Assembly: GCA_943736015.1 (NCBI GenBank)
Contig: OX031062.1
Span: 59,446,962-59,510,961, forward strand
DNA from: Tridacna crocea
Lineage: Eukaryota; Mollusca; Bivalvia; Cardiida; Cardiidae
DNA: 64,000 nt
Direction: 5' to 3'
Shown in pieces: positions 5,022-64,000 of the stretch. Position 1 is the first letter of the stretch. Each line of letters begins with the position of its first letter. The notes under the pieces are model-generated. The model was not told where the DNA came from and ran no database searches. It worked only from the letters and a program-made list of their open reading frames with translations. The position numbers were made by a program, and so were the translations under genes.

Positions 5022-5567
5022 TAAAGGTGGGTATTTAGAATTTTTACATCTCACCAAATTAAGAAATATATATATCACTGAAATCCATATGAAAAAATAA
5101 TACAAATCATCAATAATTAAGATTCATAAAATTACAAAAAAAAATTTTTTTGATGGTATTCCCTTAAAAGGCTACGTAGCCTCTTAAGCTATTTTTAGAT
5201 TTCGCGCCAAAAATCAATAAAGCATAGTGGGAATGTCAAGTGACTGGCACGTGACTCATAACGCTTAAATTCCCTATCATAACAAACATGTAATAATTGT
5301 TTTCCATAATGTCTTCTTCGGACGCTATGTTTGAAGCTTCTTCTATGTATTCCTGTAAGTAAATGAGCGAACTGATCATCTAAAAATAGAATGTGTCTCC
5401 CGTTGGTGTCAACCTGGGCCGTAATAAATCTCTAATTTTCGTATTGTCGGACGCTTTTCGACTACTTGGGTTTTATGAATGAAAATTAAACGGCTTTGGG
5501 AGTGTTAGGATGATTTTTTAGCACTTTTGTAAAATTTTCGACCCAAAATCTGAAGGGCCACCTTTAA
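5022..5567 (-). mobile_element. TTAAAGGTGG family element, full length
   Basis: Ends TTAAAGGTGG at the left and CCACCTTTAA at the right, about 546 bp, with TTAA at both ends. Related copies sit at 20695-21110 and 38658-38910. The interior has GGCTACGTAGCC, an E2F-like TTTCGCGCC at 5200-5208 and CACGTG at 5248-5253. No coding potential seen. The right TTAA is shared with the THM that follows. Confidence 0.7.
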
Positions 5568-5792
5568 GCCTTTACCAAATAATCCCTGTTTTTTACAACC
5601 CTGAGATAGAAGCCTGTTGAAAACATTGTGGGAAAAGGAGAAAATGCTGGTAACCAGCATTTTCTCCTTTTCCCACAATGTTTTCTTCTCGGCTGGAAAC
5701 AAATTTCAATTTTTGAGTTACATTTATTTTATTGACTGCAATTGCTTTCAATTTGGACTAGTGTAAATTTTTGTCGTTTGGTAAAGGGTTAA
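5564..5792 (+). mobile_element. THM-A, full length
   Basis: TTAAGCCTTTACC to GGTAAAGGGTTAA, with a perfect core hairpin (GTGGGAAAAGGAGAAAATGC mirrored). It abuts the TTAAAGGTGG element through one TTAA. Confidence 0.9.
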
Positions 5793-5980
5793 GTGTCTGA
5801 CATTTATCATGAATCAGAAATAATAGAGATGATTGCATATACACGTATTGTTATGTTTTCTATGTTACCACACAGAAATTGTCATGTTTGTTACACTTGC
5901 ACCAGATGGCTCCTTCACTTTGCAGGGGTTCAACTCTATACAAGAATTTATATAAGGCTAGAGTTTCCATCTTCACTTCA

Positions 5981-6270
5981 CCAGCTGATATAGCTCTGTA
6001 GGTAGAGCATAGGACTCGTGAAAACAATGTTTTGGGTCACTACAGGTTGTGAGTTCGAATCCCCGGCTGGCCAACTAAAATTACTAATAGTCCTTCAGAT
6101 GAGACATTTATTTAAAGCGAGGTCCCATGTGATGGTGCTATACGCTGAGCACGTTATAGAACCAGACAAAGCTCTCAATAGTATCCTTGCACTATCCCCC
6201 GTGACAACTAAAAATCTTCTTGGGGCATCGCTCAGATGGGCAACCGGTAGCGACGATAAATAATTGGAAA
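5981..6270 (+). repeat. tRNA-derived SINE
   Basis: The A-box-like TAGCTCTGTAGGTAGAGC and the B-box GAGTTCGAATCCCC are framed by CCAGC ... GCTGG, as in a tRNA acceptor stem. The spacing between boxes is too long for a tRNA and no anticodon arm is clear. A non-tRNA body with CTCAGATGGGCAACCGG follows. Confidence 0.65.
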
Positions 6271-6289
6271 TAACCAAACCTATTCACTT

Positions 6290-6420
6290 CTTACCTAATG
6301 ACAGAATTTTAGACATGACCAAATTTAAAGCATTTGCAGATGACATACTTTAACTCTTTACCACACAATCCTGAGTTTTAACAACCCTAATGTAATATAT
6401 TGTCTGCAGATGGTTTCACA
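6290..6420. repeat. THM end fragments
   Basis: CAGAATTTTAGACATGACC and AAGCATTTGCAGATGAC (reverse-oriented end) run into TTTAACTCTTTACCACACAA (forward-oriented end). No hairpin remains. Confidence 0.55.
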
Positions 6421-6490
6421 AAGGACTGAGAGTCTAACAATTCTGTCATCTGGTGTCAAAATTAATCCATACTATAAAATCAAATTTCAA

Positions 6491-6604
6491 TCCCTTACTT
6501 CATGAACCGAAAATTTTTCAGTAAAAAAAAGATAGGAAAAATGAAACTCCCTTACTTCATGAACCGAAAATTTTTCAGTAAAAAAAAAATAGGAAAAATA
6601 AAAA
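6491..6604. repeat. 57-bp tandem duplication
   Basis: TCCCTTACTTCATGAACCG + AAAATTTTTCAGT and an A-rich tail occurs at 6491 and again at 6548. The ORFs on both strands here come from this duplication. Confidence 0.85.
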
Positions 6605-6786
6605 AAAAAGAAAAATACAAATTTCATTTCAGTGAATTTGTGAATATGTGTACAATATTTTTTATAACTCTTCATTTGAATTTTTTACCCTTTATAAGAG
6701 AACAAAAGTTTGGGTTCTTCAGAAAAAAAACAAACTTGTGGACAGCAAAATAAGTGCATGTGGCTACACTAATGGGATTTGTCCTA

Positions 6787-6931
6787 GAAGACATTGTGGA
6801 AAAGAGAATTGATGACATTGTGGATAAAAGGAGTACATGCTGGTTACCAGCATTTTGTCCTTTTCCCACAATGTTTACAAAAGCTGGTTTTAGTGTTGTA
6901 AAGTCACAGGTCCATTTCGCAAAGGGTTTTA
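6787..6931 (-). repeat. THM fragment
   Basis: GACATTGTGG appears twice before ATGCTGGTTACCAGCATTTTG and CCTTTTCCCACAATG. Ends are lost or unclear. Confidence 0.6.
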
Positions 6932-6984
6932 AGTCAATGAAATTTTAGTTGGATTATCAACAATAATAACTTAGCTTTATTGGA

Positions 6985-7210
6985 TTAATCCTTTACCGTG
7001 CAATGCCGACTTTTAACACCCCTGTGAAAGAAGCCTTTTGAAAACATTATGGGAAAAAGAGAAAATGCTGGTAACCAGCATTTTCTCCTTTTCCCACAAT
7101 GTTTTCTACCCTTCCCAAATCATATTTCTATTCTTCAGCCACATTCATTTTCTCGTCTGCAGATGCTTTCAATTTGGACCAGTCTATAAAATTGTTGTTT
7201 GGTAAAGAGA
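6985..7210 (+). mobile_element. THM-A, nearly full length
   Basis: TTAATCCTTTACC start, intact hairpin, TTGTTTGGTAAAGAGA end with the last TTAA mutated. Confidence 0.85.
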
Positions 7211-8623: not shown

Positions 8624-8846
8624 TTAATCCATTATCACACAATCCCTACTTTTGTCAACTCTGAGAAAGAAGCCTCTAGAAAACATTGTGGGAAAAGGAG
8701 AAAATGCTGGTAACCAGCATTTTCTCCTTTTCCCACAATGTTTTCTACCCTTCACAAAACAAATTTCAAATTTTCAGCCACTTTTATTTTGTCGTCTGCA
8801 AATGCTTTCAATTTGGACAAGCCTAAAATATTGTCGTTTGGTGATT
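8624..8846 (+). mobile_element. THM-A, full length
   Basis: TTAATCCATTATCACACAATCC to ATTGTCGTTTGGTGATTC, perfect core palindrome. The final TTAA is mutated. Confidence 0.88.
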
Positions 8847-9133: not shown

Positions 9134-9371
9134 TTAACCCTTTCCCAAACAATCCCTGGTTTTTACGACCCTAAGATAGGTGCCTTTTGAAAACACTGTG
9201 AATAAAGGTGAAAATGCTAGTAACCAGCATTTTCTCCTTTTCCCACAGTGTTTTCCATCCTGCTGGAAACAAATTTCAAATTTTTGAGGTATATTTATTT
9301 TGTCATCTGCAAGACTTTTTAGTGCTTTCAATTTGTACCAGTCCAAAATTTTATCGTTTGGTAAAGACTAA
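9134..9371 (+). mobile_element. THM-A with AAACAATCCCTGG left end
   Basis: TTAACCCTTTCCCAAAC to GGTAAAGACTAA. The left end is B-like but the hairpin tip is A-like. Arms share the matched change CACTGTG / CACAGTG. Confidence 0.85.
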
Positions 9372-10263: not shown

Positions 10264-10958
10264 ATTGTTTTTGAGTATTTAAATGCTGAGGTGCAAAGGA
10301 ATATCATATTATACAAATGAATATACAAAACATAACGAAACTGACTACTCTAGAGTCTGGCTACGGATAGTTTGGGTTTTTTTTTTTTCCCCTTTTTAAC
10401 CATACGTTTTTCAATTTTATATTGTCTGTTTCTTTGTTTGTATCATAAATGTTATTACTCTTATATTAGAAAAACCAGGTGCTGTTGGAGTACCAAGATT
10501 ATGAATAATTTTGATCACTCCTATCCGGCAAGCCACTGAATCTCTATACGTTTATGATGGCAGAATATACAAAAAGATCAATTATTCCCGATAGGCAATT
10601 TTAAAGATTCCACTTTTTTTTTTTTTTTTTTGAAAATAGTGTGTAATTAACCGTTTCCCAAAAGAAAAATTTCAGACTATTCCAAATTAAGCCATCAGCA
10701 ATTGGCAATATTGTGATTGTTATACTTGAGATATAGTAGTATGAAAAGATAAGAACCATGGTGGGAAACGGAGATATGTATCTTTTTGAGTTTTTTTTTT
10801 CTAAAATGTTCTTCAAATCCAATATATCTCAGAGTCGTAGTAGGAGGTGATCGATATTGAAGAGGTCAAACCGGAAATTGTGGATCAGGATCTGAATGAA
10901 TTTTTGCTCATTCTGATGCTGATCTGCAGTATTCGCATAACCAACAAAACGGTATATA
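10264..10958. other. LINE 3' trailer then unrecognised DNA
   Basis: Includes T runs at about 10377-10390 and 10613-10630. No supported gene. Confidence 0.35.
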
Positions 10959-11201
10959 TTAACTCTTTATCACTCAAGCCCGAATTTTAATGACCGTGAG
11001 AAAGAGAGTTTTTGAAAACATTGAGGGAAAAGGAGAAAATGGTGTAACCAGCGTTTTCTCCTTATTCTAAGATGTTTACTGCCCTTTCAAATACAAATTT
11101 CAATTTTTGAGTCACATTTATTTTGTCGTCTGCAAACGCGACTGCAAATGTTTTTTCAGTTTGGGCAGGCCTAAAATTTTTGCAGTTTGTTAAAAATTTA
11201 A
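10959..11201 (+). mobile_element. THM-A, diverged
   Basis: TTAACTCTTTATCACTC start, AAATTTAA end. Hairpin arms imperfect (TTATTCTAAGATG on the right). Contains a small duplication of the GCAAA(C/T)G segment. Confidence 0.8.
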
Positions 11202-11346: not shown

Positions 11347-11769
11347 AAACTAAACCAAATGACAAAATTTGCGACTGGTCTGAATTCAACACATTTGCAG
11401 ACGGCAAAATAAAGTTGACTGAATATTTGAAATTTTAAGGAAGAGTAGAAAACATTGTGGCAAAAGGAGAAAATGCTGGTTTCAAGCATTTTCTCCTTTT
11501 CCTACAACGCTTACAGAAGGGTTCTTTCACAAGGTCATTAAAAGTCAGGATTATGTGGTAGAGGGTTAACTCTACCAAACAACAAAATTTTGGGGAAGTT
11601 TAAATTCAAAGCATTTACAGAGAACAAAATAAATGTGAATCCAAAGTTCAAATTTGATTTGGAAAAGGTACAAAACATTGTACAAAACATTGTGGAAAAA
11701 GAAAATGCTGGTAATGTTTAAAAAGGCTTTCTTTCTCCGAGTCGTCGCGATTGTGTAGTAAAGAGTTAT
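11347..11769 (-). mobile_element. Two THM copies sharing one TTAA
   Basis: 11347-11569 is a reverse A copy ending GGTAGAGGGTTAA. The second begins at the same TTAA (11566) and runs to about 11769 with its right hairpin arm lost and CAAAACATTGT duplicated. Confidence 0.8.
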
Positions 11770-12466: not shown

Positions 12467-13062
12467 TTAACTTTTCCTTTACCGCACATTGCCAACTTTT
12501 GACACTTCTTGAAAAGAAGCCTTTTGAAAACATTGTAGGAAAAGAAGAAAATGCTGGTAACCAGCATTTTCTTCTTTTCCCACAATGTTTTCTACTCTAT
12601 CAAAGAAAAGCTACACTATTTGAGCCACATTGAAATTGTCATCTTCAAATGCTTTAAATTTGGACAAGACAAAAATTTTGTTGTCTGGTACAGGGTTTAA
12701 CTCTTTACCACACAAAAAATTTTTAGACTAGTCCAAATTCAAAGCATTTGCAGACAACTAAACAAAGGTGACTTTTCCCACAATGTTTTCAGAAGGCTTC
12801 TCTGTCAGGGTTGTTAAAAGTCGGGATTGTGTTGTAGAGAGTTAACCACACAATCCTGACTTTTAACGACCCTGAGAAAGAAAGCCTTTGAAAACATTGT
12901 GGAAAAAGGAGAAAATGCTGATAACCAGCATTTTCTCCTTTTCCCACAATGTTTTCTACCTTTCCCAAATCGATTTCAACTTTTGATTCACATTTATTTT
13001 GTCATCTGCAAATGCTTTCAATTTGGAGCAGTCTAGAATTTTGTTGTTTGGTAAAGAGTCAA
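12467..13062. mobile_element. Chain of three THM copies sharing single TTAAs
   Basis: Members: 12467-12700 (+), with both arms carrying AAAAGAAGAAAATG / CATTTTCTTCTTTT; 12697-12845 (-), an internal-deletion copy without hairpin; 12842-13062 (+), full. Adjacent members share exactly one TTAA with no spacer. Confidence 0.9.
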
Positions 13063-13362: not shown

Positions 13363-13821
13363 TTAACTCTTTAGCACACAATCCTGACTATTAACAGCCC
13401 TAAGAAAGAAGCCTATAGAAAACATTGTGGGAAGAGGAGAAATTTCTGGTAACCAGCATTTTCTTCTTTTTCCCACAATGTTTTCTGCTCTTCCAAAGTC
13501 AAGTTTCAATTTTCGATTCACATTTACTTTGTTGCCTGCAAGTGCATTCAATTCCGACTAGTCCAAAATTTTATCATTTTACATTTGGTAAAAAGTTAAC
13601 TCTTTACCACACAATCCCGACTATTAATGACCCTGAGAAAGAAGCCTATAGAAAACATTGTGGGAAGAGGAGAAAATGCTGGTAATCAGCATTTTCTCCT
13701 TTTCTCACAACAGTTTCTACCCATTGACAGTCAGAAATCATATTACTAAGATTTAATTTGTTATCTGCAGATGCTTTGGATTTGGTCCAGTGCAAAACTT
13801 TGTTGTTTGGTAAAGAGTTAA
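13363..13821 (+). mobile_element. Two direct THM copies sharing one TTAA
   Basis: 13363-13599 and 13596-13821 lie in the same orientation. Both carry GAAGCCTATAGAAAAC and GGGAAGAGGAG in the left arm while the right arm reads CTTTTTCCCAC or CTTTTCTCAC. Confidence 0.88.
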
Positions 13822-14040: not shown

Positions 14041-14254
14041 TTAACCCTTTACAACACAATCAGGACTTTAAATGAGCCTCAGGAAATAGGCTTTAAAAAA
14101 CACTGTGGGAAAAGCTGAAAAGTTGGTAACCAGAATCTTTTATTTATCCCTCAATGTTTTCTATTCCATTAAGCATAAATTTCATCATATGGACCTCTAA
14201 ACTGTTGTCTGCGAGTACTTGCACCTTGGACAAATCTTATACATATGGTACAGT
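14041..14254 (+). mobile_element. THM-A, diverged
   Basis: TTAACCCTTTACAACAC start. Weak hairpin (AAAGCTGAAAAGTTGG). The right end is lost next to the foldback element. Confidence 0.65.
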
Positions 14255-15400: not shown

Positions 15401-15634
15401 TTAACCTTTTGCCATTCAGTCCCTTCTTTTTATGGGTCTGCAACAGACAAGTCAAGAAAACATTTTGATTCTAGGAAATCGAAAAAAATGCTCAAAATGG
15501 GCAATTTCTCCATTTCCCAAAATGCTTTCTACCTTATTGTAGAACTGAAGCTCATTTGTGCCAAAATTGCAGTTGTTGTCTGCAGATGCTTTGAATTTCG
15601 TGGAGGCCAAATTTTGTCAACTTGTGATGGGTTA
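15401..15634 (+). mobile_element. Old THM nested in the foldback
   Basis: TTAACCTTTTGCCATTCAGTC to TTGTGATGGGTTATT. The hairpin is strongly diverged (AATGCTCAAAATGGGCAATTT) but the TTGTTGTCTGCAGATGC word remains. Confidence 0.65.
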
Positions 15635-16194: not shown

Positions 16195-16422
16195 TTAACC
16201 CTTTCCCAAACGATAAATATTGGACTCTTCCAAACCAAAAGAGTTTGCATACGACAATTTTGAATTCAGAGAAAATGAAAGAAAGTTCTCAAAAAGGGTA
16301 GAAAACACTGTAGAAAGAGGAGAAATTGCTCGTTACGAGCAATTTCTCCTTTTCCCACTGTGTTTTCAAAAGACTTTTACTGCAGACACGTAAAAACCAG
16401 GGCTTGTTTAGGAAAGGCTTAA
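16195..16422 (-). mobile_element. THM-B, full length
   Basis: TTAACCCTTTCCCAAACG to GGAAAGGCTTAA. Tip GCTCGTTACGAGC. The distal part carries GCAGACACGTAAAAACCAGG, diagnostic of subfamily B. Confidence 0.88.
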
Positions 16423-16424: not shown

Positions 16425-16965
16425 TCTGATTCCCTTGTTTTTTCACAAGCTTTAGTATGAAGGTTTTTGAAAAGTCTCCTTTTTAAGAAAGTGTTCTACC
16501 CCGTCAAAAACAAAATCCACCCTTTTGGCCGCAATGAAGTTGTTATTTCAAAAGCCGAAGAGTCCAAAATGTTGATGTCTGGTATTAATACAGGGTAAGT
16601 ACATGTTTGCCTGTATTTGCCATTGGGAAAGTAACAATACCCTTCAAAATTTTTATGAAGTATCTCTAAGGTATAAGATCAAAAGGGAACCATTAACCTA
16701 TTAAAAAGTACTTACAGGGGCCAGTGAGTTTACCTGGCTCAATTTTTGGCCCCTCACCAAAAAATGCCTTCATTTTTAGGATTGGAAGAAAGCTTTTCAA
16801 AATAATGAGGGAAAAGAAGAGAATGCTGATGACCAGCATTTTCTCCTTTTCCCTAAATGCTTTCTACCTTCCATAAGCAAATTTCCTGTTGTGCAAGACA
16901 CATTTACTTTGTTGTCTGCAAATGCTTTTGGTTTGGATAAGCATAGCATTTTTGACCTCTGAGAA
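16425..16965 (+). repeat. Two decayed THM copies
   Basis: 16425-16600 keeps TTTTGAAAAGTCTCC and the right-end words only. 16760-16965 keeps a hairpin with tip GCTGATGACCAGC and TTTGTTGTCTGCAAATGC. Confidence 0.55.
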
Positions 16966-16988
16966 AGCATGAAATGAAAATACATGTA

Positions 16989-17536
16989 TTAAACTCGTTG
17001 GCAAATGACAAAATTTTAGGTTGGTGCAAATCAAAGGCATTTGCAGATGACAAAATAAAAGTGACTGAAAATTTGTAATTTGTTTTGTAAAGGGTAGAAA
17101 ACATTGTGGAAAAGGAGAAAATGCTGGTTACCAGCATTTTCTCCTTTTCCCACAATGTTTCCTAAAGGCGTCTTTCTCAGGGTCGTTAAAAGTCAATATT
17201 TTCTACCCTTCCCAAAATAGAATTTCAATTTTTCAGTCACATTTATTTTGTCTGTTGCAAATACTTTCCATTTGGACCGGTCTAAAATTTTCTTATGTGG
17301 TAAAGAGTTAACCCATTACCACACAATCCCTACTTTTGATGACCCTGAGAAAGAAGCCTTTTGAAAACATTGTAGGAAAAGGAGAAAATGCTGGTAACCA
17401 GCATTTTCTCCTTTTCCTACAGTGTTTTCTAACCTTCCCAGAACAAACTTCAATTTTTCAGTCACCTTTGTTTTCTTATCTGCAAATGCTTTCAATTTGA
17501 ACCAGTCTAAAATTTTCTTATGTGGTAAAGAGTTAA
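16989..17536. mobile_element. THM chain: composite plus full copy
   Basis: 16989-17311 begins as a reverse A copy and switches at about 17194 into the right half of a forward copy, so both outer ends are right ends. 17308-17536 is a full forward copy sharing TTAA 17308-17311, with arm-matched AGGAAAAGG / CCTTTTCCT. Confidence 0.85.
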
Positions 17537-17636: not shown

Positions 17637-18020
17637 TTAACTCTTTACCAAACTGCAAAATTTGAAGACTTGCTTTAACCCTTTACCCCATAAGGCATTT
17701 CTATGGTATTTCTAATTGACCCTAAATAACAGCAAGGATGAAGCCGTTTCTTATGTGTATATGACACCTTTTGATAGTGTAGAAAACATTGTTGCAAAAA
17801 GTGAAATTGCTCGCCACGAGCAATTTCATCTTTTGCCACAACGTTTTCCAAAGGCTCCTATAAGCAATGCGTAGAAATGAGTATCTATGGAGTAAAGGGT
17901 TAAATTGAGAGCATAAAGTTTTGCTTACAACAAATTACATTTTGTCTCCGATAATGAGACTTGTCTGTAAAGGGAAGAAAACATTGACGAATAAAGAGAA
18001 AAATCTGGTTCCCAACTAAT
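17637..18020 (-). mobile_element. THM-C with flanking THM pieces
   Basis: 17675-17903 runs TTAACCCTTTACCCCATAAGG to GGAGTAAAGGGTTAA with tip GCTCGCCACGAGC. A short A-type end precedes it and a decayed THM follows to about 18018. Confidence 0.85.
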
Positions 18021-18071: not shown

Positions 18072-18489
18072 GGGTCCATATTCACCAACCATTCTTTACC
18101 CTGTACCAAATGACAAAATTTGGAATGTGACCAAATTTAAAGCATTTGCAGATGACAAATTAAACATTGATGAAATGATGATTTCTCTCTTTGATAGTGT
18201 AGAAAACACTGAGGGTAAAGGAGAAAATGCTGATTACCAGCATTTTCTCCTTTTCCCACAGTGTTTTCCAAAGACTTTAGGGTTGTTGAAAGTCGGGATT
18301 AAGTGGTAAAGACTTAAGAACATTCTTAATCTTATTCTTCAGAATTTTGTCAATGTGAGAGTAACATAAAATCTGACTGGCTAAACCAATTGGCTCAGCC
18401 AATCAGAAGTTCTGTTACTTTCGCAAATCAGAAAATCTTGAAGATTAAGAGAAAGAACATTCTTAAGAATGGTTGGTGAATACAGACTC
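18072..18489. mobile_element. ACCAACCATTC MITE interrupted by a THM
   Basis: The left end CATATTCACCAACCATTC stops at 18094 and resumes after 18317 as GAACATTCTTAATC, ending ATGGTTGGTGAATACAG. The interior has an ATTGGCTCAGCCAATC inverted CCAAT pair. Confidence 0.85.
18095..18317 (-). mobile_element. THM-A inserted in another MITE
   Basis: TTTACCCTGTACC (TTAA mutated to TTTA) to GGTAAAGACTTAA. Removing it restores CCATTC-TTAA-GAACATTC, the sequence seen intact (reverse) at 18470-18480. Confidence 0.9.
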
Positions 18490-19889: not shown

Positions 19890-20441
19890 CCTAACCCTTT
19901 CCTACACAATAACGACTTTGGACGCCCCTGAGAAAGAAGCCTTTAGAAAACATTGTGGAAAAGGAGAAAATGCTGATAACCAGCATTTTCTCCTTTTCCC
20001 ACAATGTTTTCTACCCTTCCCAAAACAAATTTTAATTTTTGAGCCATGCTTTATTTGTCGTCTGCAACTTATGTCTGACTGTATATTAGACTTGTCCAAA
20101 TCTAAAGCATTTGTAGACAACAAAATAAAGTGTGACTCAAAAATTGAAACTTTACTTGTTTTCAGAAGGCTACTTTCTCTGGGTCATAAAAACCAGGAAT
20201 TGTTTGGTAAATGGTTAACCCTTTCCCAAACAACAAATTTTGGACCCTTCCAAACCAAACGAGTTTGCAGACGACAATTCTAGATTTGGAGAAAATTGCA
20301 GAAAGTTCTCAAAAAGGGTAGAAAACACTGTGGGAAAAGGAGAAATTGCTCGTTACGAGCAATTTCTCCTTTTCCCACAGTGTTTTTAAATACTTTTACT
20401 GCAGACACGTAAAAACCAGGGCTTGTTTGGTAAAGGGTTAA
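19890..20441. mobile_element. THM chain: composite A then THM-B
   Basis: 19890-20218 is two partial A copies joined through the Tc1-type end CAACTTATGTCTGACTGTAT at about 20066. 20215-20441 is a full reverse B copy (tip GCTCGTTACGAGC) sharing TTAA 20215-20218. Confidence 0.85.
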
Positions 20442-21416: not shown

Positions 21417-21825
21417 ATCTGCAGACAACAAGTTTAAATGTGACTAAAAACTGAGATTTCACATCAGAAGGGTAGAAAATGTAGTAGGAAAAAGTTAACA
21501 TGCTGTTTACCAGCGTTTTCTCCTTTTCTCACAATGTTTCTGAAAGGCCTACCTTGCCAGGGTCTTTACAGGTCTCAATTGTGGTGATGTTGAGAGTTAA
21601 CCCTTTTCTCCATAGATACTCATTTCTACACATCGCTTGTAGGAGCCTTTGGAAAACATTGTGGCAAAAGGTGAAATGGCTCGTGACGAGCAATTTCACC
21701 TTTTGTCACAATGTTTTCTGTGCTATCAAAAGGTGTCCTATACACATAAAAAACAGCTTCATCCTTGCTGTTATTTACAGTCAATTAGAGATACCATAGA
21801 AATGCCTTATGGGGTAAAGGGTTAA
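21417..21825. mobile_element. Decayed THM-A then THM-C sharing TTAA
   Basis: 21417-21600 (-) keeps a weak hairpin (CATGCTGTTTACCAGCG). 21597-21825 (+) is a full C copy with CTCCATAGATACTCATTTC and tip GCTCGTGACGAGC. Confidence 0.85.
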
Positions 21826-22062
21826 GGAAATGGCTCTTATAATGGTAGAAGCCATGCTCTGTGAAAAGGGGCCATCTGCAAAAAATATGTCCCCCTTATT
21901 AATGGAATTCCAAGCTAATATGTCATATAGCGCCATAGCAGTAGACAGTCTTGAAATCATGGTGGAAAAAGGAGGAATTTTTCTAACAAACAATTATTCC
22001 CTCTTTTGAACAATTATTTCATTTCTTTTCCTTTGCACAGATTTCTCTCGTTTGTTAGATTG

Positions 22063-29062: not shown

Positions 29063-29140
29063 TAATTTGTTAAGTTTGATGAGGTTATAAAATTCTGAAC
29101 ACATGTAGTTTCAAATAAATACCAACAAACAAACTGTCAG

Positions 29141-44904: not shown

Positions 44905-45030
44905 CTCCGGGTGGAGGAAGATTCGGACCCAAGAAGATTCGGCCCAACACGAAATCTTGAGAAGATTCGGACCCAAGAAGATTCGGACCACCTACGAGAA
45001 GATTCGGCCCAAGGTAGAAGAAGATTAGGC
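44905..45030 (+). repeat. AGAAGATTCGG minisatellite, plus sense
   Basis: AAGAAGATTCGGRCC occurs six to seven times. The mirror array lies at 46752-46872. Confidence 0.85.
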
Positions 45031-46751: not shown

Positions 46752-46872
46752 AACATGGGCCGAATCTTCTCACCCTCGGGGCCGAATCTTCTTACCTGCT
46801 GGGCCGAATCTTCTCGAAAATCGCTGGAAGGCCCTGGGCCGAATCTTCTTGGGTCCGAATCTTCTGACATCC
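46752..46872 (-). repeat. AGAAGATTCGG minisatellite, minus sense
   Basis: GGGCCGAATCTTCT occurs five times. Inverted relative to 44905-45030, 1.7 kb away. Both outer sides carry GAAACTCCG. Confidence 0.85.
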
Positions 46873-47838: not shown

Positions 47839-48559
47839 TTAACTCTTTACCAAACAACAAAAAAAGTAGGCAGGTCCAAATTGAAAGCTCTTGAAGATGA
47901 CTAAAGACTAAATGAATGTGACTCCAAAATTGAAATTGGTTTCCAGCAGGGTAGAAAACACTGTGGGAAAAGGAGAAAATGCTGGTTACCAGCATTTTCT
48001 TCTTTTCCCACAATGTTTTCAAATGGCTTCTATCTCAGGGTTGTAAAAACAAGGGATTATTTGGTAAAGGGTTAACTCTAAACCAAACAACAAAATTTGG
48101 ACTCATCAGTGGTTTGCAGAGAATGAATTAAATGTATCTAAAATGAGGTCTGTATATGATAAGTTAAAAAACATTGTGGGAAAATGAGAAAATACTGGTT
48201 AACAGCATTTTCTCCTGATCTCACAATTTTTTCAATATACGCATTACCAGTAGTTGTTAAAAACAGGACTATGTGGTAAAGAGTAAGAACAAAAAAAGGC
48301 TTGGCAATTTTATTGCAGCCACATTTCTGTTTTACACCTAGATAATTTTCTGACAAAAGTTTCGTTGCACCCTGAACTGATCACCAAATAAAAAAAATTG
48401 ACCAAGCCTTAATCCTTTACCAAACAATCCCTTGTTTTCACATCTCTGAAGTTTTTGAAAACATTGTAGGAAATGGCGAAAATGCTGGTATAAAATGATA
48501 GTAACCAACATTTTTCCTTTTCCCACTACCTTTTCTGCCCTTTAAAGACAAATTTAATC
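47839..48559. mobile_element. Three THM-A copies
   Basis: 47839-48075 (-) full; 48072-48286 (-) decayed, sharing TTAA; 48409-48559 (+), right end lost and tip expanded by TATAAAATGATAG. Confidence 0.82.
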
Positions 48560-50528: not shown

Positions 50529-50751
50529 TTAACCCTTTCCCAAACAATCCCTGGTTTTTACGACCCTGAGTTAGAAGCCTTTTGAAAACATTGTGGGAAA
50601 AGGAGAAAATGCTGGTAACCAGCATCTTCTCCTTTTCCCACAATATTAACTACCCTGCTGGAAACATATTTTGATTTTTGAGGTATTATGTTGTCTGCAA
50701 ATGCTTTCAATTTGGACCAGTCCAAAATTTTGTTGTTTGGTAAATGGTTAA
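50529..50751 (+). mobile_element. THM-A, full length
   Basis: TTAACCCTTTCCCAAAC to GGTAAATGGTTAA. Confidence 0.88.
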
Positions 50752-51101: not shown

Positions 51102-51808
51102 TTAACTCTTTGCCACACTGTCACAATTTTTAACAACTTGAAAGGAAAAGTCTTTTGAAGACTTTTAATGACCCTTGGAGAGGCACCTTTTGAAAACAAG
51201 GTGAGAAAAGGAGAAAATACTTGTAACCAGCATATTCTCCTTTTCCCACAATGTTTTCTACCCGATAAAAGAAAAATTTCACCATTCAAGCCACACTGAA
51301 ATTGTCATCTGCAAATGCTTTGTGCTTTGAATTTGGAAAAGGCTAAAATTTCACAGTGTGGTAAAGGGTTAACAGCATTTGCAGAGAACAACTGGAATTT
51401 AGGTCAAGTGATTATTTTTGCCTTCGATAAAGTTGAAAATATTGTGGGAAAAGCAGAAAATGCTGATTAGATTTCCACACAATATTTTCAGAAGGCTTCT
51501 TCCTCAGGGACAAGAAAACCAGGGATTGTGTGGAAAAGGGTCACAGAAAGTACTTTATCAGACAAAAAAATATTTTTTTCTCTAAAACAAAGGCCATAAT
51601 ATGCAGTAAAAAATTTAGTTGGGTTTATTGATGCGATATTTCTTTGAAAGGGTAGAAATCATTGTGGAAAAAGGAGAAGATTTGATTTATACAAGCATTT
51701 TATCCTATTCCCACAATGTATAAATTATTATTATTATTATTATTATTAAAGCCTTGTTCTTTAGGGACGTGAAAACTTTCACCAAAGCGTGGATTTATAA
51801 AGGGTTAT
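51102..51808. mobile_element. Three THM copies
   Basis: 51102-51372 (+) with an internal duplication of the left part; 51369-51541 (-) with the right arm lost; 51640-51808 (-) with a (TTA)n microsatellite at 51721-51748 inside the right arm. Confidence 0.75.
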
Positions 51809-51970: not shown

Positions 51971-53777
51971 TTAACCCTTCACCAAATGATAAAATTTTAG
52001 ACTGGTCCAAATTCAAAGCTGTTGCAGACGACAAATTAAACGTGAATAAAAAATTGAAATTTGTTCCCAGCAGGATAGAAAACATTGTGGGTAAATGAGA
52101 AAATGCTGGTTACCAGCATTTTCTCCTTTTCCCACAATGTTTTCAGGGTCATAAAAACCAGGGATTGTTTAGGAAAGGGTTAACTGTTTACCAAACGACA
52201 AAACTATGGACCGGTTCATATTCAAAGCATTTGCAGACGACAAAATAATGTGACTTGAAAAGTTGAAATTTGGTTTGGAAAGCGTAGAAAACATTGTGGG
52301 AAACGGAGAAAATGCTGGTTTCCAGCATTTTCTCCTTTTCTTACAATGTTTTTGAAAGGCTTCTGTCTTAGTGTCGTTAACTGATATTTTATTCCTGTAC
52401 AGGGTCCAAAAAAAATTTCAGAATTCTTACTTGTCCTGCCATTTTGCACTCATCCTACAGTAAGACAAAGAATGATAATCTAATTGCCCTCACCAAATTT
52501 TTACTAGTAAGTACGAGCAGACAAGTGGATTCTTTGGACCCTGCCGTAGCTCTGAGATAAAAGGTCTTTTGGAAACATTGTTGAAAAAGGAGAAAACCAG
52601 CATTTTCTCCTTTTTCCACAATCTTGACTGCCTTTTCATAGACTGAATATCAGCATTTAACCCTTTACCACACAATGACGACTTTAACCCTTTCCCAAGC
52701 AATCCGTGGTTTTCACGGGTCTGGAATAGAGCCTTTTGAAAACATTGTGTGGGAAAAAGGAGAAAATGCTGGTAACCAGCATTTTCTCCTTTTCCCACAA
52801 CGTTTTCTACCCTATCATAGACAGAAATCATCTTTTCAGCAAGAGTTGAATTGTCGTCTGCAAATGCTTTCAATTTAGTCTAGTCCAAAAGTTTGTCGTT
52901 TGGGAAAGGGTTAAACGACCCTGATGAAGAAGCCTTCTGAAAACATTGTGGGAAAAGAAGAAAATGCTGTTAACCAGAAACCAGCATTTTCTCCTTTTAC
53001 CACAAGGTTTTGTACCATTATATAGACGAACTTCCATCATTACAGCCACATCTAAATTGACGTCAGCAAATGCTTTCAATTTAGATGAGTCTAAGGGATA
53101 GCTCTTTACCACAAAACATAATATTATTTCAGACACTTTGAAATTGAGAGCATCTGCAGACAAGAAATCTTAACCCTTTCCCAAACAAGCCCTGGTTTTT
53201 ACGTATCTGCAGTAAAAGTCTTTTGAAAACACTGTGGGAAAAGGAGAAATTGCTCGTAACGAGCAATTTCTCCTTTTCCCACAGTGTTTTCTACCCTGTT
53301 TGAGAACTTTCTGACATTTTCTCCAAACCTGAGATTGTCGTCTGCAAACTCTTTTGGTTTGGAAGAGTCTAAAATTTGTTGTTTGGGAAAGGGTTAAAGC
53401 GATACAAATGAACTGACATTCTTTGATGGGGTAGAAAACAGTGTGGGAAAAGGAGAAAATGCTGGTTACCAGCATTTTCTGCTTTTTCTCACAATGTTTC
53501 AGAAGACCTCTTTCTCAGGACTGTCTTTACCAGACAACAAAGTTTTAGCCTTGCCCAAATTGAAAGCATTTGCAGACGACAATTTCAGTGTGGCTCAAAT
53601 GGTGAAATTTTTCTTTGATAGAGTAGAAAACATTGTGTGGGAAATGGAGAAAATGTTTGTTACCAGAATTTTCTTCTTTTCCCACAATATTTTCATAAGG
53701 CTTCTTTTCCAGAGGCATCAAAAGTTTGGATTGTGTGGGAAAGGGTTAAAACCTGGTACTGTGTGATAAAGGGTTAA
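51971..53777. mobile_element. Longest THM chain, at least nine pieces
   Basis: 51971-52183 (-); 52180-52380 (-); unrelated DNA to about 52549; 52550-52660 without ends; 52684-52914 (+), entered after a 27-base solo left end; 52911-53173 mixed; 53170-53397 (+), full B with tip GCTCGTAACGAGC; 53394-53525 (-); 53523-53749 (-); a solo right end to 53777. Confidence 0.88.
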
Positions 53778-53990: not shown

Positions 53991-54598
53991 TTAACCCATT
54001 ACCACACAATTCCTACTTTTGAAGCCCCTGAGAAAGAAGGCTTTTGAAAACATTGTGGGAAAAGGAGAAAATGCTGGTAACCAGCATTTTTTCCTTTTCC
54101 CACAATGTTTTCTACCCTTCACAAAACAAATTTCAAATTTTCAGTCACTGTTATTTTGTCGTCTGCAAATGCTTTCGATTTGGACAAACCTAGAATTTTG
54201 TTGTTTGGTAATGAGTTAACCCTTTACCACACAATCCTTAGTCATAATGACCCTAACAGAGAGGGCTTTGAAAACATTGTGGGTAAAGGAGAGAATGCTG
54301 GAAACCAGCAATTCTCCTTTACCCACAATGTTTTTAAAGCCCTCTCTGTTAGGCTCATTATAACTCGGGGTAAAGGAGTATCTAATGTTTTCAATGTTTT
54401 CAAAGCCCTCTCTGTTAGGGTCATTATAACTCCGGGTAAAGGAGAATTGCTGGTTTCCAGCATTCTCTCCATTCCCCTGAATGTTTTCTGATCTTTCTGA
54501 GGCAAGTCTCATTATTTTGATCCACTTTGCAGTTTGATCTGCAAGTGTTTTTAATTTGGACCAGTCAGCAATTGCTGTGTCGTTTGGTAAAGAGTTAA
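53991..54598 (+). mobile_element. THM-A then a rearranged THM
   Basis: 53991-54219 is full. 54216-54598 shares its TTAA and contains the left arm once, the right arm twice and AAAGCCCTCTCTGTTAGG twice, so the core was duplicated and partly inverted. Confidence 0.88.
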
Positions 54599-54619: not shown

Positions 54620-54770
54620 AGCTCACCCTGGATTTCATCAATACAAGGTTGAGGCACTGTAGTGCTGTGCCCAAGGGAACTCCAATATAATCCAGCTGCC
54701 TGCAAGTGGGATCAAACCTGGATTTCTAACCAGGACATATCGAACACCTTATCCACAAAGTCATGGTAAA
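54620..54770 (-). repeat. Decayed SINE-like repeat, reverse strand
   Basis: The minus strand has CCAGGTTTGATCCCACTTGC, a B-box-like word. Confidence 0.4.
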
Positions 54771-54998
54771 CTCTTTACCACACAATCCTGACTTTTAATA
54801 ACCTTGAGAGAGGCCTTTTGAAAACATTGTGGGAAAAGGAGAAAATGCTGGTAACCAGCATTTTTTCCTTTTCCCATAATGTTTCCTAACTTTCCCAAAC
54901 CACGGTTCATCTTTTCAATCAGATTTATTTTTTCGCCTGTAAATTAATGCTTTCAATTTGAACTAGTTTAAAATTTTGTATTCTAGTGAAGAGTTCAA
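54767..54998 (+). mobile_element. THM-A
   Basis: CTCTTTACCACACAATCCTG to AGTGAAGAGTTCAA; both TTAAs mutated. Confidence 0.8.
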
Positions 54999-56364: not shown

Positions 56365-56859
56365 TTAACTCTTTACCACACAACCCCAACTTTTAATGAT
56401 CCTGAGGAAGAAAGCCTTTGAAAACATTGTGGGAAAAGGAGAAAATGCTGGTAACCAGCATTTTCTCCTTTTCCCACAATGTTTTCTACCCTATCAAAGT
56501 CAGAAATCACCATATTACCAAGATTTAATTTGTTGTCTGTAGATGCTTTGAATTTGGTCCAGTCCAAAAATTTTTCGTTTGGTAACACGTTAACTCTTCA
56601 CCAAAGAGCAAGATTTTGGACATATCCAAACTAACTCTTTACCACACGAGAAAATTTTAGACTGGTCCAAATTGAAAGCATTTGTAGACGACAAAATAAA
56701 GGTGACTAAAAATTAGAAATTTGTTCTGGGAAGGGTAGAAAACACTGTGGGAAAAGGAGAAAATGCTGGTTACCAGCATTTTCTCCTTTTTCCACAGTGT
56801 TTTCAAAAGGCATCTTTCTCAGGGTCGTCAAAAGTAGGGATTGTGTGGTAATGGGTTAA
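56365..56859. mobile_element. THM-A, solo end, THM-A
   Basis: 56365-56593 (+) full; 56590-56632, a reverse end only; 56632-56859 (-) full with matched CACTGTGG / CCACAGTG arms. Confidence 0.88.
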
Positions 56860-56882
56860 ACATTAATTATGAACATCACATA

Positions 56883-57088
56883 TTAGCCCTTTACCTTATA
56901 AGGCATTTCTATTGTATCTCTAATTGACCCTAAATAACAGCAAAGATGAAGCTGTTTCTTACGTGTATATGACACCTTTTGATAGTGTAGAAAACATTGT
57001 TGCAAAAGGTGAAATTGCTCGTCACAATGTTTTCCAAAGGCTCCTACAAGCAATGCGTAGAAATGAGTATCTATGGAGAAAAGGGTTA
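56883..57088 (-). mobile_element. THM-C, right hairpin arm lost
   Basis: TTAGCCCTTTACCTTATAAGG to GGAGAAAAGGGTTAC. The hairpin jumps from GCTCGTCAC directly to AATGTTTTCC. Confidence 0.8.
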
Positions 57089-57700
57089 CATGTGATTCAA
57101 AAATTGATATAACTTTAGGATGGTAGAAAATAGTGGTTACAGCTTTCTCTCTTCCTTCATGTCTCCACTTGGCACTCCATAAAGTCAAAAAAAAAATAAT
57201 TTTCTCATTTAATTCTGTGATGGCATTGTGTTACGAAAGATTACAATCAGTTGGAGATGCTCAATAGAATACTTGTGTTTGATTACCTCTTTACCTTCTT
57301 ACCGTTAAAAAACTGAAAAAGAATTTTCCAGCCAATAGTAACAATCCAAATAATTGCAAATTCAAAGTTCATTTTAAAAGGGAGAAAGTCTTTATGTATA
57401 AAACAGTGTAGAACAAACATAAGACTGCATGTTTTGCACAGTCTGATCTAGATCTATACTGTCCACAACAGTGATTAGACTCAAACTTAGAAACTTAAGG
57501 GTTAAAATGAAAACAGCACTTGATTGTTTACAGACACTAATATTGATCCCTGTTTTGTGTGGAAGGCTTCCCTAATGACTGAAACAAGTGTACCAGTCTA
57601 GTTTCTTGTTGCCTGTTGGTTGAGATCATTTCCTGTTTTAGACAAACCCATCATGTTCTTTATTTCCTGGATCTTGTTCATTAATGTGTTCATCTTTTTT
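57089..57700. other. No supported gene; short GATCAG repeat
   Basis: CATAAGACTGCATG and GCACAGTCTGATCTAGAT at about 57420-57460. The rest is AT-rich. Confidence 0.35.
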
Positions 57701-58803: not shown

Positions 58804-59028
58804 ATGTTTACTCCATAGATACTCATTTCTACGCATTGCTTGTAGGAACTTTTGGAAAACATTGTGGCAAAAGGTGAAATTGCTCGTCACGAGCAATTTC
58901 ACCTTTTGCCACAATGTTTTCTATGCTATCAAAAGGTGTCATAAACACACAAGAAATAGCTTCATCCTTGCTGTTATTTAGGGTCAATTAGAGATGCCAT
59001 AGAAATGCCTTATGGGGTAAACGGTTAA
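58804..59028 (+). mobile_element. THM-C, full length
   Basis: TTTACTCCATAGATACTC to GGGGTAAACGGTTAA. Perfect hairpin with tip GCTCGTCACGAGC and GGCAAAAGGTG arms. Confidence 0.92.
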
Positions 59029-59164
59029 TAAATAAAACCGCTATCAGGATGGGTATCAACATATACAAAATACTATATCACATTTTTCTCTAATCATTTT
59101 TTTCTTTGAATGGGATATTCAAAGCATTTTGAAATCAACTGTCATGATAATTTTGTTGGTACAG

Positions 59165-60220: not shown

Positions 60221-60695
60221 TTAACCAATTACCACACAATCCCTACTTTTGATGCCCCTGAGAAAGAAGCCTTTTGAAAACACTGTGGGAAAAGGAGAAA
60301 AATGCTGGTTACCAGCATTTTCTCCTTTTCCCACAGTGTTTTCTACCCTTCCCAGAACAAATTTCTATTATTTTTCAGTCACCTTTATTTTGTCGTCTGC
60401 AAATGCTTTCAATTTGGACCAGTCTAAAATTTTCTTATGTGGTAATGAGTTAACTAGAGGAAAAAAAATTTATACTGATTCAAATTGCAAGCATTTGCAG
60501 AGGAAAAATTAAAGCACATACAGACGACATAATAAATGTAGCTTACATTTTGAAATTTGTTTTTGAAAGGATAGAAAACATTGTGGGAGTAGGAGAAAAT
60601 GCTGGTAATCAGCATTTTCTCCTTTTCCCACAATGTTTTTTAAAAGCTTCCTTTTCAGGGTTGTTAAAGGTCAGGATTGATTGATAAAGGGTTAA
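60221..60695. mobile_element. Two THM-A copies sharing a TTAA
   Basis: 60221-60453 (+) full with CACTGTGGG / CCCACAGTG arms. 60450-60695 (-), left end altered, ends GATAAAGGGTTAA. Confidence 0.88.
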
Positions 60696-61643: not shown

Positions 61644-61789
61644 AAAGCCAGTGGAGCGATACACGGCCATCAAGGTCCTCTTGTTACAATATACTGGTAT
61701 GTGAAGCATTGTACAAGACAGCCAACATTTCCTCTGATACCTTAATTCTTTTCCTTGCTGTTTTCACATTTTCACTCATGATTTTTCAC

Positions 61790-61853
61790 AAATTATTTGT
61801 CATCTGCAAATAGTTTCAACAAGACTAAAATTTTCTGTTATTTTAGTAAGGAG
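61790..61853 (+). repeat. THM right-end fragment
   Basis: ATTTGTCATCTGCAAATAG and AAGACTAAAATTTTCTGTTA. Confidence 0.5.
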
Positions 61854-62197
61854 TTTAGCATGCAGGCTAGCTTCTGTTACACCAGAATGAGGGCTTTTAA
61901 CTGTGTGCTTTCTCTGGAGCCATGTAAAGCCCATAAACTCATCTGGGTGTGATCATCATTGCCAGTTTGATGAGGAGCTGGGCACTTACTCAAGGTGAAA
62001 CATGAAAGTAATTGTAGAAAGTACATGATTTGTCTCTTTGAATCTGGACTGCCTTTGTTTTCTGGCAATTAATTAGACATAAACATCAGTCTAGGGTTAT
62101 AGGTATTATTCTTTGCATGTTTTTCATTCAAGTAGAAGATTTTTGGCTGCAAGATTGATATCCATTGCCATGCAATAAAGTTTAGTTGTTGACCCGT
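61854..62197. other. No gene or repeat recognised
   Basis: The minus ORF at 61877-62068 has no domain. Confidence 0.35.
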
Positions 62198-62426
62198 TTA
62201 ACTCTTCACCAAACAACAAAATTTTAGACTAGTCCAAAATGAAAGCATTTGCAGACGACAAGATAAAATTGTCTGGAAATTTGAAAATTATTTTAGGAAG
62301 GGAAGAAAACATGGTGGGAAAAGGAGAAAATGCTGGTTACCAGCATTTTCTCCTTTTCCCTCCATGTTTTCAGAAGGCTTCTTTCTCAGGGTCGTTATAA
62401 GTCGGGATTGTGTGGTAAAGAGTTAA
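62198..62426 (-). mobile_element. THM-A, full length
   Basis: TTAACTCTTCACCAAAC to GGTAAAGAGTTAA. Arm-matched CATGGTGGG against CCCTCCATG is only partial. Confidence 0.9.
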
Positions 62427-62711
62427 ATTTCATCAATAGCCAATTCTTTACCTGCCTATATACTTTTTGCACCTATTTACAGACAGCATAATTATAAAAA
62501 TGTGTCTTGAACAATAGAAATTGTCTTTGAAAGAGTAGAAGTTGGGGAAAAAGAGCATCATAAGAACATCTTTTTTCTTTTTTTTTTACAGATAATTTAC
62601 ACTTTAATCTGTTTAAAAATGATTTCACCCTTTTCCTCAAAGATACCTACTGCAGACACATTAAAATAACATTGGCAAAACATCCTATATTTACTGGTTA
62701 TGTTCTTTCAG

Positions 62712-62900
62712 CTTGCCAAGCCTGGTCTTGGTCAAAATGTCCTGGCCAAACTTCCTTGGCCAGAATGACCTACATCCATACAAGTGCCACAAAGAAATAC
62801 TGTGCAGAAAAAAAAATTATTACAGGGCAAAAGGAGTCCTATGACTAAATCTAGTTTTCCAGAATATATTGTATTCATCTACATATCAGTCAGCATGTGA
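62712..62900 (+). pseudogene. Candidate exon with one in-frame TGA
   Basis: Acceptor GTTCTTTCAG; the frame reads LAKPGLGQNVLAKLPWPE, TGA (62766), PTSIQVPQRNTVQKKKLLQG + KRSPMTKSSFPEY on to TGA at 62898. 62 codons with a single break that one C-to-T change in CGA would explain. Unidentified, basic in its second half. Confidence 0.28.
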
Positions 62901-63560
62901 AGACTGATCTCTATACTATATACACTGATCTGTAAAGTACCTCAACTTGTGCTTGGCACTGCAAAATTTCAATATTGTAATGAATGAGAAAAAAGAAAGT
63001 AGATACAGATAAAGCTGAGCTACCTATCTTGAAGTGGTAGTACAAGCTACAGAAGAGAGAAAGAGGGAAATATATTTGAGAAACATATTTTCTTTCACTA
63101 TTGCACAAAGAGCATTTGGATCAAACAAAAATTGTATGACTCAATCTCATTATCCAGATTTCAGGAGAATTTCAAGATTTTCCATGAGTTTTTTTTTTCT
63201 CTTGCCTGCCAGGATTCCCCCACATCTGGGAAGGATAATGTCTGGGTACCAGGCATGCATGACAAAGCTTTGGTTCCATGCTTGTTAACAAAATATTTAT
63301 GAATGGGTTATTACTTACAAGTGGTTCGGCTTTATCACCTGCCTTTTGTTATGGGGGTATCAATTTCAGAAGAACCATCCAGCATGAATAAGCCTGACAT
63401 CCATATAATTTATGAGTAGTTTATTGACCTTCATTTGCTTTGTCTTTTTTCTGTATTTGTTTGAATGATGTATGTGGTTTTCAACAATATTAATGGGACC
63501 TAGATAACAGTGACAGTTCAACTATTGTTTTACTTGTTGATTTAAACGTCGGATTAAGAT
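62901..63560. other. No supported gene
   Basis: An 84-residue plus ORF at 63034-63288 lacks a domain and runs through a T-rich tract. Confidence 0.3.
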
Positions 63561-63561
63561 T

Positions 63562-63802
63562 CAACTCTTTACCAAATGACAACATTTTACACCTATCTAA
63601 ACTGAAAGGAATTTTGCAGGCAACACATTTAATGTGGCTGAAATAGTCGAATTTGTGGTGAAAATTGGGTAGAAAACACTGTGGGTAAACCGTAAAGGAA
63701 AAAATGCTGGTTACCAGCATTTTCTCCTATTCTTGTGTTGTTTTCAAAAGGCTTCTTTCTCATGGTCATCAAAACTTGTAATTGTTTGGTAAAGAGTGAA
63801 AA
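63562..63802 (-). mobile_element. THM-A with insertion in one arm
   Basis: AACTCTTTACCAAATGAC to GGTAAAGAGTGAA. The left arm has CCGTAAA inserted after CACTGTGGGTAAA; the other arm reads TCTCCTATTCTTGTG. Confidence 0.8.
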
Positions 63803-63846
63803 AGAAAAAAAAAAACAAGCTTCATTTCATCACTAATCCTTTTCTT

Positions 63847-64000
63847 TTAACCCTTTACCACACAATCCCAACTTTTAACGACCCTGGGAAAAAGGCCTTT
63901 TGAAAATGTGGTGGGAAAAGGAGAAAATGCTGGTAACCAGCATTTCCTCCTTTTCCCACAATGTTTTGTACCCTTCCCAAATTCTTATATTTTAGTCACA
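63847..64000 (+). mobile_element. THM-A, cut by window end
   Basis: TTAACCCTTTACCACACAATC, full hairpin, right end beyond 64000. Confidence 0.88.

Follow-up and report, generated by a model that had tools for sequence, protein, structure and literature searches.

Copies in the window

The window, a stretch of 64,000 nt from the genome of the bivalve Tridacna crocea, is densely populated by one short repetitive element. A profile built from window copies gave 244 raw nhmmer matches in the window at E≤1e-2, and 1 match in five dinucleotide-shuffled windows that were searched together with it. Overlapping matches, which arise because the palindrome of the element matches itself on both strands, and matches with E>1e-3 were removed. 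The remaining 132 non-overlapping pieces span positions 1917-63998 and correspond to 129 copies once joined, 70 in plus and 59 in minus orientation; 58 single pieces are full-length (59 after joining) and 74 are partial. Together they cover 22,872 bp, or 35.7% of the window. The sequence-only reading had described at least 75 pieces in both orientations, making up about a quarter of the window between 5564 and 64000. It was right about the abundance and the orientations, but its number and share were too low, and the copies, which do fill this region, are not confined to it, since three pieces lie before 5564 (1917-2061, 3416-3556 and 4806-4922).

According to the profile, full-length copies on the plus strand are located at 5564-5792, 6985-7209 (the query of the first searches), 8624-8844, 9134-9370, 10959-11193, 12476-12697, 12845-13061, 13363-13598, 13596-13820 (sharing its TTAA with the preceding copy), 14041-14252, 15401-15634, 16747-16971, 17308-17536, 22146-22393, 24180-24409, 24989-25217 (the top profile score), 28069-28288 (adjoining a 155-bp tandem array), 32829-33051, 39168-39395, 41565-41790, 41975-42206, 50529-50751, 52684-52914, 53170-53397, 53991-54219, 54769-54995, 56365-56592 and 60221-60453. 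Those on the minus strand are found at 6685-6928, 10648-10868, 11350-11569, 11570-11768 (abutting the preceding copy), 16195-16422, 18096-18317, 20215-20441, 24555-24794, 25701-25954, 26659-26886, 27048-27281, 29141-29367, 29395-29622, 33846-34058, 34505-34711, 36991-37220, 37274-37502, 37752-37979, 38946-39169 (head to head with 39168-39395), 39573-39803, 41021-41250, 47839-48075, 48073-48285 (sharing a TTAA with the preceding copy), 51553-51806, 51971-52183, 53525-53749, 56632-56859, 62198-62426 and 63562-63799.

Among the 132 pieces are a few from a sister family, named B, which has the same layout and a different 3' half; the minus-strand match at 17638-17903, for example, is better described as a B copy at 17670-17904. 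Further B copies lie at 21593-21834, 26263-26503 and 58806-59033 on the plus strand and at 56874-57090 on the minus strand. A Pfam scan of 10 reading frames outside the copies revealed no domain above the cut-off, and frames of at least 110 aa that cross copies extend past the copy edges (e.g. 24184-24642).

Structure and classification of the element

The consensus of the main family (family A) is 229 bp long, non-coding and too short for a transposase, and contains an internal 67-bp palindrome. The copies are short, uniform in length and dispersed, being full-length in many cases in the window and present in all random genomic stretches analyzed (see below). The terminal inverted repeats (TIRs) of the consensus, TTAACCCTTTACCACAC and TTAACTCTTTACCAAAC, match at 15 of 17 positions. 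Inside the flanking TTAA, family A starts with CCC and ends with GAG or GGG. In 294 kb comprising the window, random stretches and flanks, TTAA is present on both sides of 105 of the 140 pieces that are complete at both ends. Moreover, paralogous empty sites with a single TTAA were detected for three copies: 22146-22393 (empty at 23425-23535 on the plus strand of the window and at L016:195-329), 18096-18317 (empty at L013:8851-8763) and L016:3234-3462. In these three good cases the best matches are 81-92% identical with no gap at the junction, although individual paralogs deviate even here (TGAA in L031, a gap in L015); among the 67 queries with junction-spanning matches not labelled as MITE, the majority of matches were weak or MITE-derived. 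The TTAA-flanked MITE with a hairpin core that had been proposed from the sequence is supported.

Helitrons, which start with 5'-TC, end with 3'-CTRR, insert between A and T and cause no duplication, were considered and rejected, since family A has TIRs, a TTAA duplication and other termini. Kolobok and Sola3 elements also use TTAA, so the target by itself is not decisive. However, the CCCTTT termini agree with those of the PF13843 piggyBac elements of the same genome, which makes an assignment to one of these two superfamilies very improbable.

The genome contains at least 118 PF13843 matches, split matches included. Among 17 elements examined, both termini were recognised in five and one terminus in five more (TTAACCCTTTATATAC, TTAACCCTTTCAG, TTAACCCATTTATGCC and TTAACCCTAGTCATGC). 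These elements (e.g. G000:C10:43135503, C12:18056727 and C6:1762957) have in common with the MITE the TTAA target and the termini TTAACCCTTT, with CCC directly after TTAA. They differ from it in that they encode a transposase, are approximately 2.7 kb long and have ends that diverge past the first 10 bp. An autonomous element with CCCTTTACCA ends was not among the 17 of 118 PF13843 matches examined. Taken together, it is highly probable that the 229-bp family is a non-autonomous, piggyBac-type MITE which is distributed genome-wide, makes up between about one fifth and one quarter of the genome, and is represented in the window by an ordinary, moderately dense sample.

A piggyBac-family transposase would move the copies in trans, cutting at the TIRs (TTAACCCTTTACCA...) and inserting the element into TTAA, whose duplication is visible in the copy flanks and empty paralogous sites. 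The TIR ends covary among 208 copies (columns 8/222, p=1e-14; 11/219, p=1e-10; p-values that ignore relatedness), and amplification probably drew on several source lineages, in each of which the end variants are matched. The median divergence from the consensus is approximately 14%. Judged by sequence divergence, the majority of the copies is old and would be decaying, and one subfamily (ATTACC ends) appears younger.

Load in the genome

The family was found in each of twenty random 10-kb stretches, where it covers 25.7% on average (range 5.3-62.0%, bootstrap 95% CI 18.8-33.4%). The coverage was 24.4% at E≤1e-10 and 23.4% when blastn was used with one consensus at 1e-10, with no matches in shuffled stretches. 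In the whole genome, a 23-mer from the palindrome arm has 367,061 exact occurrences (reversed control, 0), and the entire 67-bp palindrome is present in 26,428 exact copies. The 23-mer is more frequent in the 200 kb of random stretches (4.35 per 10 kb) than genome-wide (3.50 per 10 kb), so the value of 25.7% is probably too high; the calibrated value is 20.7%. With this calibration, we estimate that the family makes up about 20-26% of the 1.05 Gb, in more than 1 million pieces.

The high density had been taken to suggest a local burst or a preferred landing zone. There are indeed signs that insertions could have strongly favoured the window over other parts of the genome, or that its copies arose by local hopping: it contains 44 exact 23-mers where 22.4 are expected (6.9 versus 3.5 per 10 kb, 1.96-fold) and five exact 67-mers where 1.6 are expected, flanking sequences within approximately 100 kb are also dense (41% in six 5-kb pieces), and for 21 of 64 window copies the nearest relative is another copy in the window (15.9 expected). 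However, random 10-kb stretches carry between 0 and 11 exact 23-mers, so that the two-fold enrichment is within their spread, and 5 of the 20 stretches exceed the coverage of the window, reaching 62%. In addition, copies that are approximately 14% diverged from the consensus argue against a recent burst, and the 32 TTAA sites shared by two complete ends in the 294 kb are in line with the 26-32 expected, by a hand estimate, for random use of TTAA. Across the random stretches, density was unrelated to TTAA density (rho 0.08) or GC content (rho -0.22, p=0.36). Local targeting or hopping is therefore hardly probable; since the element makes up an estimated 20-26% of the whole genome, the window fairly represents an extreme, genome-wide invasion and is not a special hotspot.

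The internal palindrome

The palindromic core occupies approximately columns 55-123 of the 229, with arms of 33-34 bp and the centre at column 89; in the copy at 6985-7209 it corresponds to the self-complementary match at 7039-7108. A core of about 66 bp had been attributed to each piece. Its size is confirmed, but "each" applies only loosely, since 28 or more of the 33 pairable positions are retained in 94 of 132 pieces, with a mean complementarity of 85%. Among these 94, eight cores are perfectly complementary and 31 have at most two mismatches. All 18 exact hairpins of the window (arms of at least 20, loop of at most 12) are located within copies.

In each of the four copy groups, conservation is higher in the core than in the spacers. 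The consensus sequences of subfamilies C11 and T8 differ at 0 of 69 palindrome positions, as compared with 11 of 34 to the left and 18 of 47 to the right, and between subfamily A8 and the others 1 of 69 palindrome sites is changed. Even in the young A8 group, divergence from its own consensus is lower in the palindrome than in the spacers (4.5% versus 7.9%, p=4e-5), which suggests that copy decay may not be fully neutral, or that the spacers hold substructure. Families A and B have 58 of 69 palindrome bases in common; four changed pairs are still complementary and one is broken. An A-type profile is biased toward relatives with the same palindrome. The right half of B is unrelated to that of A (46.1% similarity versus 45.9% for shuffled sequence). 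Across the source lineages, spacers have drifted or been replaced and the palindrome has persisted, so that it probably acts in cis as part of the mobile element.

Could selection act on the RNA instead? Transcripts through the copies would then be substrates of a small-RNA or dsRNA-editing pathway, and the hairpins themselves would be the product for which the arms are kept complementary. The conserved core, the 31 window copies with at most two mismatches and the 26,428 perfect palindromes in the genome would be in line with this. The arms, however, change largely independently (273 single-arm and 10 paired changes, 4.3 expected, in 70 nearest-neighbour pairs), and none of 4227 Rfam families matched the window at the gathering threshold, a search which an undescribed family would escape. 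We consider this explanation improbable. The MADE1 mariner MITE, linked to miR-548, is likewise a short palindromic DNA element able to give hairpin RNA, but it belongs to another superfamily (TA target) and has far fewer copies.

Alternatively, the palindrome could owe its conservation to being copied from one element to another, by gene conversion or by template switching at hairpins, rather than to a function in transposition. This would fit the identical palindromes in subfamilies with strongly different spacers, the four paired A/B differences, each of which inverts a pair (from G-C to C-G or from A-T to T-A), the 73 compensated doubles outside the five main pairs (approximately 40 expected) and the presence of a million homologous donors. 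Against it, the same 273 single and 10 paired changes indicate little arm correction after insertion, and we regard such copying as rather unlikely. Tentatively, we propose that the palindrome may be a portable amplification module: TTAA elements with an intact palindrome, such as A and B with their unrelated 3' halves, would be mobilised so efficiently that one of them fills a fifth or more of the genome, and changes in source elements would occur mostly in complementary pairs because the function needs symmetry. This is possible, though still less than probable.

By analogy with the short palindromes in known piggyBac ends, our best guess is that the palindrome is a candidate site for transposase docking or synapsis via paired C-terminal domains. 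Palindromes of approximately 14-19 bp are described for piggyBat and Trichoplusia ni piggyBac (PMC11707139), whereas the MITE has one internal palindrome of 67 bp; this length, far beyond that of known binding palindromes of approximately 19 bp, counts against the docking idea. Some piggyBac elements of the same genome have subterminal palindromes, one of them the same 18-bp palindrome in both ends. No 10-mer of the MITE palindrome is present in the ends located for ten piggyBac elements of this genome (300 bp per end), and inverted repeats with arms of at least 7 were absent from most.

Implications

Occupying about 20-26% of an animal genome of 1.05 Gb with more than 1 million pieces, the family is far more abundant than is usual for a single MITE family. 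For scale, a published count for mulberry is 286,122 MITE-related sequences, all families together. The published annotations of Tridacna crocea, as far as their available text goes, agree with our data in reporting a very high repeat load (PMC11700175, PMC10858879), with 34.9% DNA "Unknown" in 2,578,864 elements in PMC10858879. This available text names neither the family nor any piggyBac MITE. The two annotations conflict on the Helitron or rolling-circle share (1.03% versus 22.48%, the latter in PMC11700175), and the MITE family may explain this disagreement. The family would be a main cause of the genome size in this clam, and it makes two questions testable: how an element without a transposase reached such numbers, and whether a long internal palindrome acts in transposition.

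The MITE in the window

The profile built from the copies in the window yielded 244 raw matches at E<=1e-2, while five shuffled windows, searched together with the same profile as a control, yielded one. Removal of overlaps left 132 pieces, which were joined to 129 copies (70 on the plus strand and 59 on the minus strand) and cover 35.7% of the window; 58 single pieces are full-length. The element, referred to as family A, starts with TTAACCCTTTACCACAC and ends with the near-inverse GTTTGGTAAAGAGTTAA. Its palindrome spans approximately columns 55-123 of the 229-bp consensus and has arms of 33-34 bp. Profile matches, palindrome and TTAA flanks thus bear out a sequence-only reading, which had described a TTAA-flanked element with a hairpin core. 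That reading was right about the family, but its counts (at least 75 pieces, about a quarter of the window) were too low, and three pieces are located upstream of position 5564, where it had placed the beginning of the family.

The exact 67-bp palindrome is present in 26,428 copies genome-wide and in five copies in the window. A search against Rfam gave no match, and no similar DNA was found in phages; a 27-mer of its core had no match in viral_contigs and none in genome_contigs. When ten non-MITE frames of the window were compared to Pfam as candidate coding genes, none scored above the cut-off.

Other repeats were also seen. A minisatellite with a 33-bp unit in 21 copies (4034-4717) contains several open frames, with lengths between stops of 151 and 169 aa, and a 155-bp unit repeated five times with 96% match (28285-29066) starts at the TTAA closing the MITE copy 28069-28288. 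Clusters of the GAAGATTCGG(A/C)CC-type motif at 44917-45032 and 46757-46865 are in opposite orientations, with about 1.8 kb between them. The region 5987-6260 resembles by eye a tRNA-like SINE with the box-B-like motif GTTCGAATCC; ARAGORN with the bacterial code detected no tRNA. At the sampled genome locus L025, six MITE pieces (columns 1-153) with a regular spacing of about 1.85 kb share the same downstream sequence, and here the MITE is caught within a long tandem repeat.

Genome-wide abundance

The window corresponds to G000:C7:59446962-59510961 in an assembly of 1,048.8 Mb in 31 contigs. Of the first 18 contigs, 17 are 40-77 Mb long and together make up 1,003.5 Mb, so that about 18 chromosomes carry nearly the whole assembly. 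The MITE was found in all 20 random 10-kb stretches, the first 20 of 100 drawn positions, with a mean share of 25.7% (bootstrap 95% interval 18.8-33.4%; median 21.4%, range 5.3-62.0%) and 15.2 pieces per 10 kb; the draw relied on lower-bound or guessed contig ends, so that distal chromosome parts are under-sampled in these values. The copy-centred loci L001-L008 were excluded from this density estimate, and L001, which overlaps the window, also from the alignments. The estimate was robust to stricter criteria: at E<=1e-10 the mean share was 24.4%, and blastn with a single consensus gave 23.4% at 1e-10, 19.5% at 1e-20 and 13.5% when 80% identity was required. Coverage of shuffled stretches was zero.

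In the whole genome, an exact 23-mer of the palindrome arm has 183,652 + 183,409 matches, corresponding to 3.50 per 10 kb, and the reversed 23-mer used as a control has none. The random stretches contain 4.35 per 10 kb (spread 0-11) and are thus somewhat rich in the MITE; therefore the share was calibrated (25.7 x 3.50/4.35), resulting in 20.7% of the genome and approximately 1.28 million pieces. With the MITE masked, the next repeat groups recurring among the random stretches account for 7.8, 1.4 and 1.4%, a comparison that misses families which are too diverged or too rare; by eye, the 7.8% group looks like diverged tandem units.

The window itself harbours 44 exact 23-mers (6.9 per 10 kb), which is twice the genome mean and within the spread of the random stretches, and its flanks (up to about 100 kb away) match it in density, with 41% MITE in six 5-kb stretches. 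The local burst or preferred landing zone proposed from the sequence was rejected in view of the random stretches, the whole-genome counts, the copy ages and the nearest relatives. Two further candidates were rejected. Preferential insertion into the ends of older copies was considered since at 32 sites in 294 kb two complete ends meet at a common TTAA (64 of the 483 complete ends), but random use of TTAA would lead to 26-32 such sites according to a hand estimate. Neither GC nor TTAA content correlated with MITE density across the 20 stretches.

Two stretches of contig C1 are poor in MITE k-mers. Positions 1-272643 lack the forward arm 23-mer, which first occurs at 272,644 (about 48 expected at the genome mean), and 2,674,922-3,502,492 lacks the palindrome 67-mer (about 21 expected). 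Satellite or subtelomeric DNA is among the possible reasons.

The family is unnamed in the openly licensed literature we searched. The repeat figures quoted from PMC11700175 for T. crocea are 22.48% rolling-circle, 16.01% SINE and 14.19% DNA elements. The MITE share of about 20-26% exceeds this DNA bin, and therefore part of the family was probably filed there under another label; it is plausible that the rolling-circle bin is mislabelled MITE. The genome does encode Helitron proteins (32 PF14214 matches). For another T. crocea assembly, the corresponding figures in PMC10858879 are 1.03% Helitron and 34.9% DNA 'Unknown' (2,578,864 elements).

Age and subfamilies

Among copies aligned over 200 columns or more (254 in all), the median pairwise difference is 25%, and close relatives (within 5%) exist for only 10 of them. 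The two ends show parallel variation, columns 8/222 and 11/219 covarying. The A8/T222 end-variant group (34 copies, nine of them in the window) differs from its own consensus by a median of 6.2%, as compared to 14.1% in the T8 group (96 copies), 13.8% in the C11/G219 group (14 copies) and 14.0% in a mixed group (110 copies). The family thus spread in several waves, one of them younger.

Insertion at TTAA and relationship to piggyBac

In 294 kb, 140 pieces have both ends complete, and 105 of these are flanked by TTAA on both sides. A joined-flank search revealed three clear insert-free paralogous sites with a single TTAA: L016:195-329 and window 23425-23535 for the MITE at 22146-22393, L013:8851-8763 for that at 18096-18317, and window 5124-5247 for that at L016:3234-3462. 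The empty-site evidence is limited to these cases, with the best subjects in the window, L013 and L016 (loci above L034 were unmasked); some of their paralogs differ (TGAA in L031, a gap in L015), and the remaining junction matches were mostly weak or MITE-derived. The site 23425-23535 lies shortly after a diverged tandem array with a 166-bp unit (22535-23293).

The genome contains at least 118 matches to the piggyBac transposase domain PF13843, some of which are pieces of one element. Recent activity is suggested by several groups of matches that score identically and have frames open over 492-624 aa. Among 17 elements examined, TTAACCCTTTATATAC was recognised at both ends of 624f, 515g and 474h and at one end of 549e, TTAACCCTTTCAG at both ends of 599i and one of 600o, TTAACCCATTTATGCC at both ends of 552c, and TTAACCCTAGTCATGC at one end each of 593j, 653n and 546m; in seven, the ends were not recognised. 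No autonomous partner with TTAACCCTTTACCA termini was found among these 17 of the 118 matches. Since the MITE has TTAACCCTTT in common with two of the piggyBac end groups and lacks a Helitron signature, we file it with the piggyBac-type MITEs.

Conservation and possible role of the palindrome

The palindrome is the best conserved part of the MITE. The C11 and T8 consensus sequences differ at none of its 69 positions, compared to 11 of the 34 positions in the left spacer and 18 of the 47 in the right one, and the A8 consensus differs from the rest at one of 69. The sister family B, also 229 bp long, carries the palindrome at the same position with 58 of 69 bases identical, while its 3' half has no detectable similarity to family A (46.1% identity, shuffled 45.9%) and its left spacer is 57% identical (shuffled 40%). 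Four of the changed palindrome pairs are altered on both sides and still complementary, and one is broken. The compensated pairs (columns 69/109, 76/102, 81/97 and 86/92) are all flips (G-C to C-G, A-T to T-A), with no transition pairs.

Ongoing correction between the arms was considered as an explanation, since an initial count found 211 compensated doubles where 62 were expected. However, five pairs account for 138 of these (23 expected), and at four of the five the change is one that distinguishes family A from family B. Furthermore, 70 nearest-neighbour pairs showed 273 single-arm changes versus 10 paired (4.3 expected) and 12 unpaired double changes. We rejected this explanation, although the remaining 73 doubles are more than the approximately 40 expected. 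Divergence within the young A8 group is 4.5% for the palindrome and 7.9% for the spacers (p=4e-5). Because the palindrome is conserved across subfamilies and in family B and the arms drift in inserted copies, its symmetry was kept in the source elements and mostly lost after insertion, a picture complicated by the 73 doubles and by the A8 difference.

In PMC11707139 the transposase of known piggyBac elements is described as a dimer whose two cysteine-rich domains bind short palindromes close to the element tips. Such palindromes are also present in some of the piggyBac elements found here, for example CGTCCCCTTTTGGGGACG in both ends of 552c. Based on this analogy, our preferred guess is that the MITE palindrome may be a docking site for transposase, although none of its 10-mers occurs in the ends of the ten piggyBac elements checked; the main alternative is that the palindrome was copied between elements. 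The surprise in T. crocea is the genome-wide load of this MITE together with its conserved palindrome, rather than the window.
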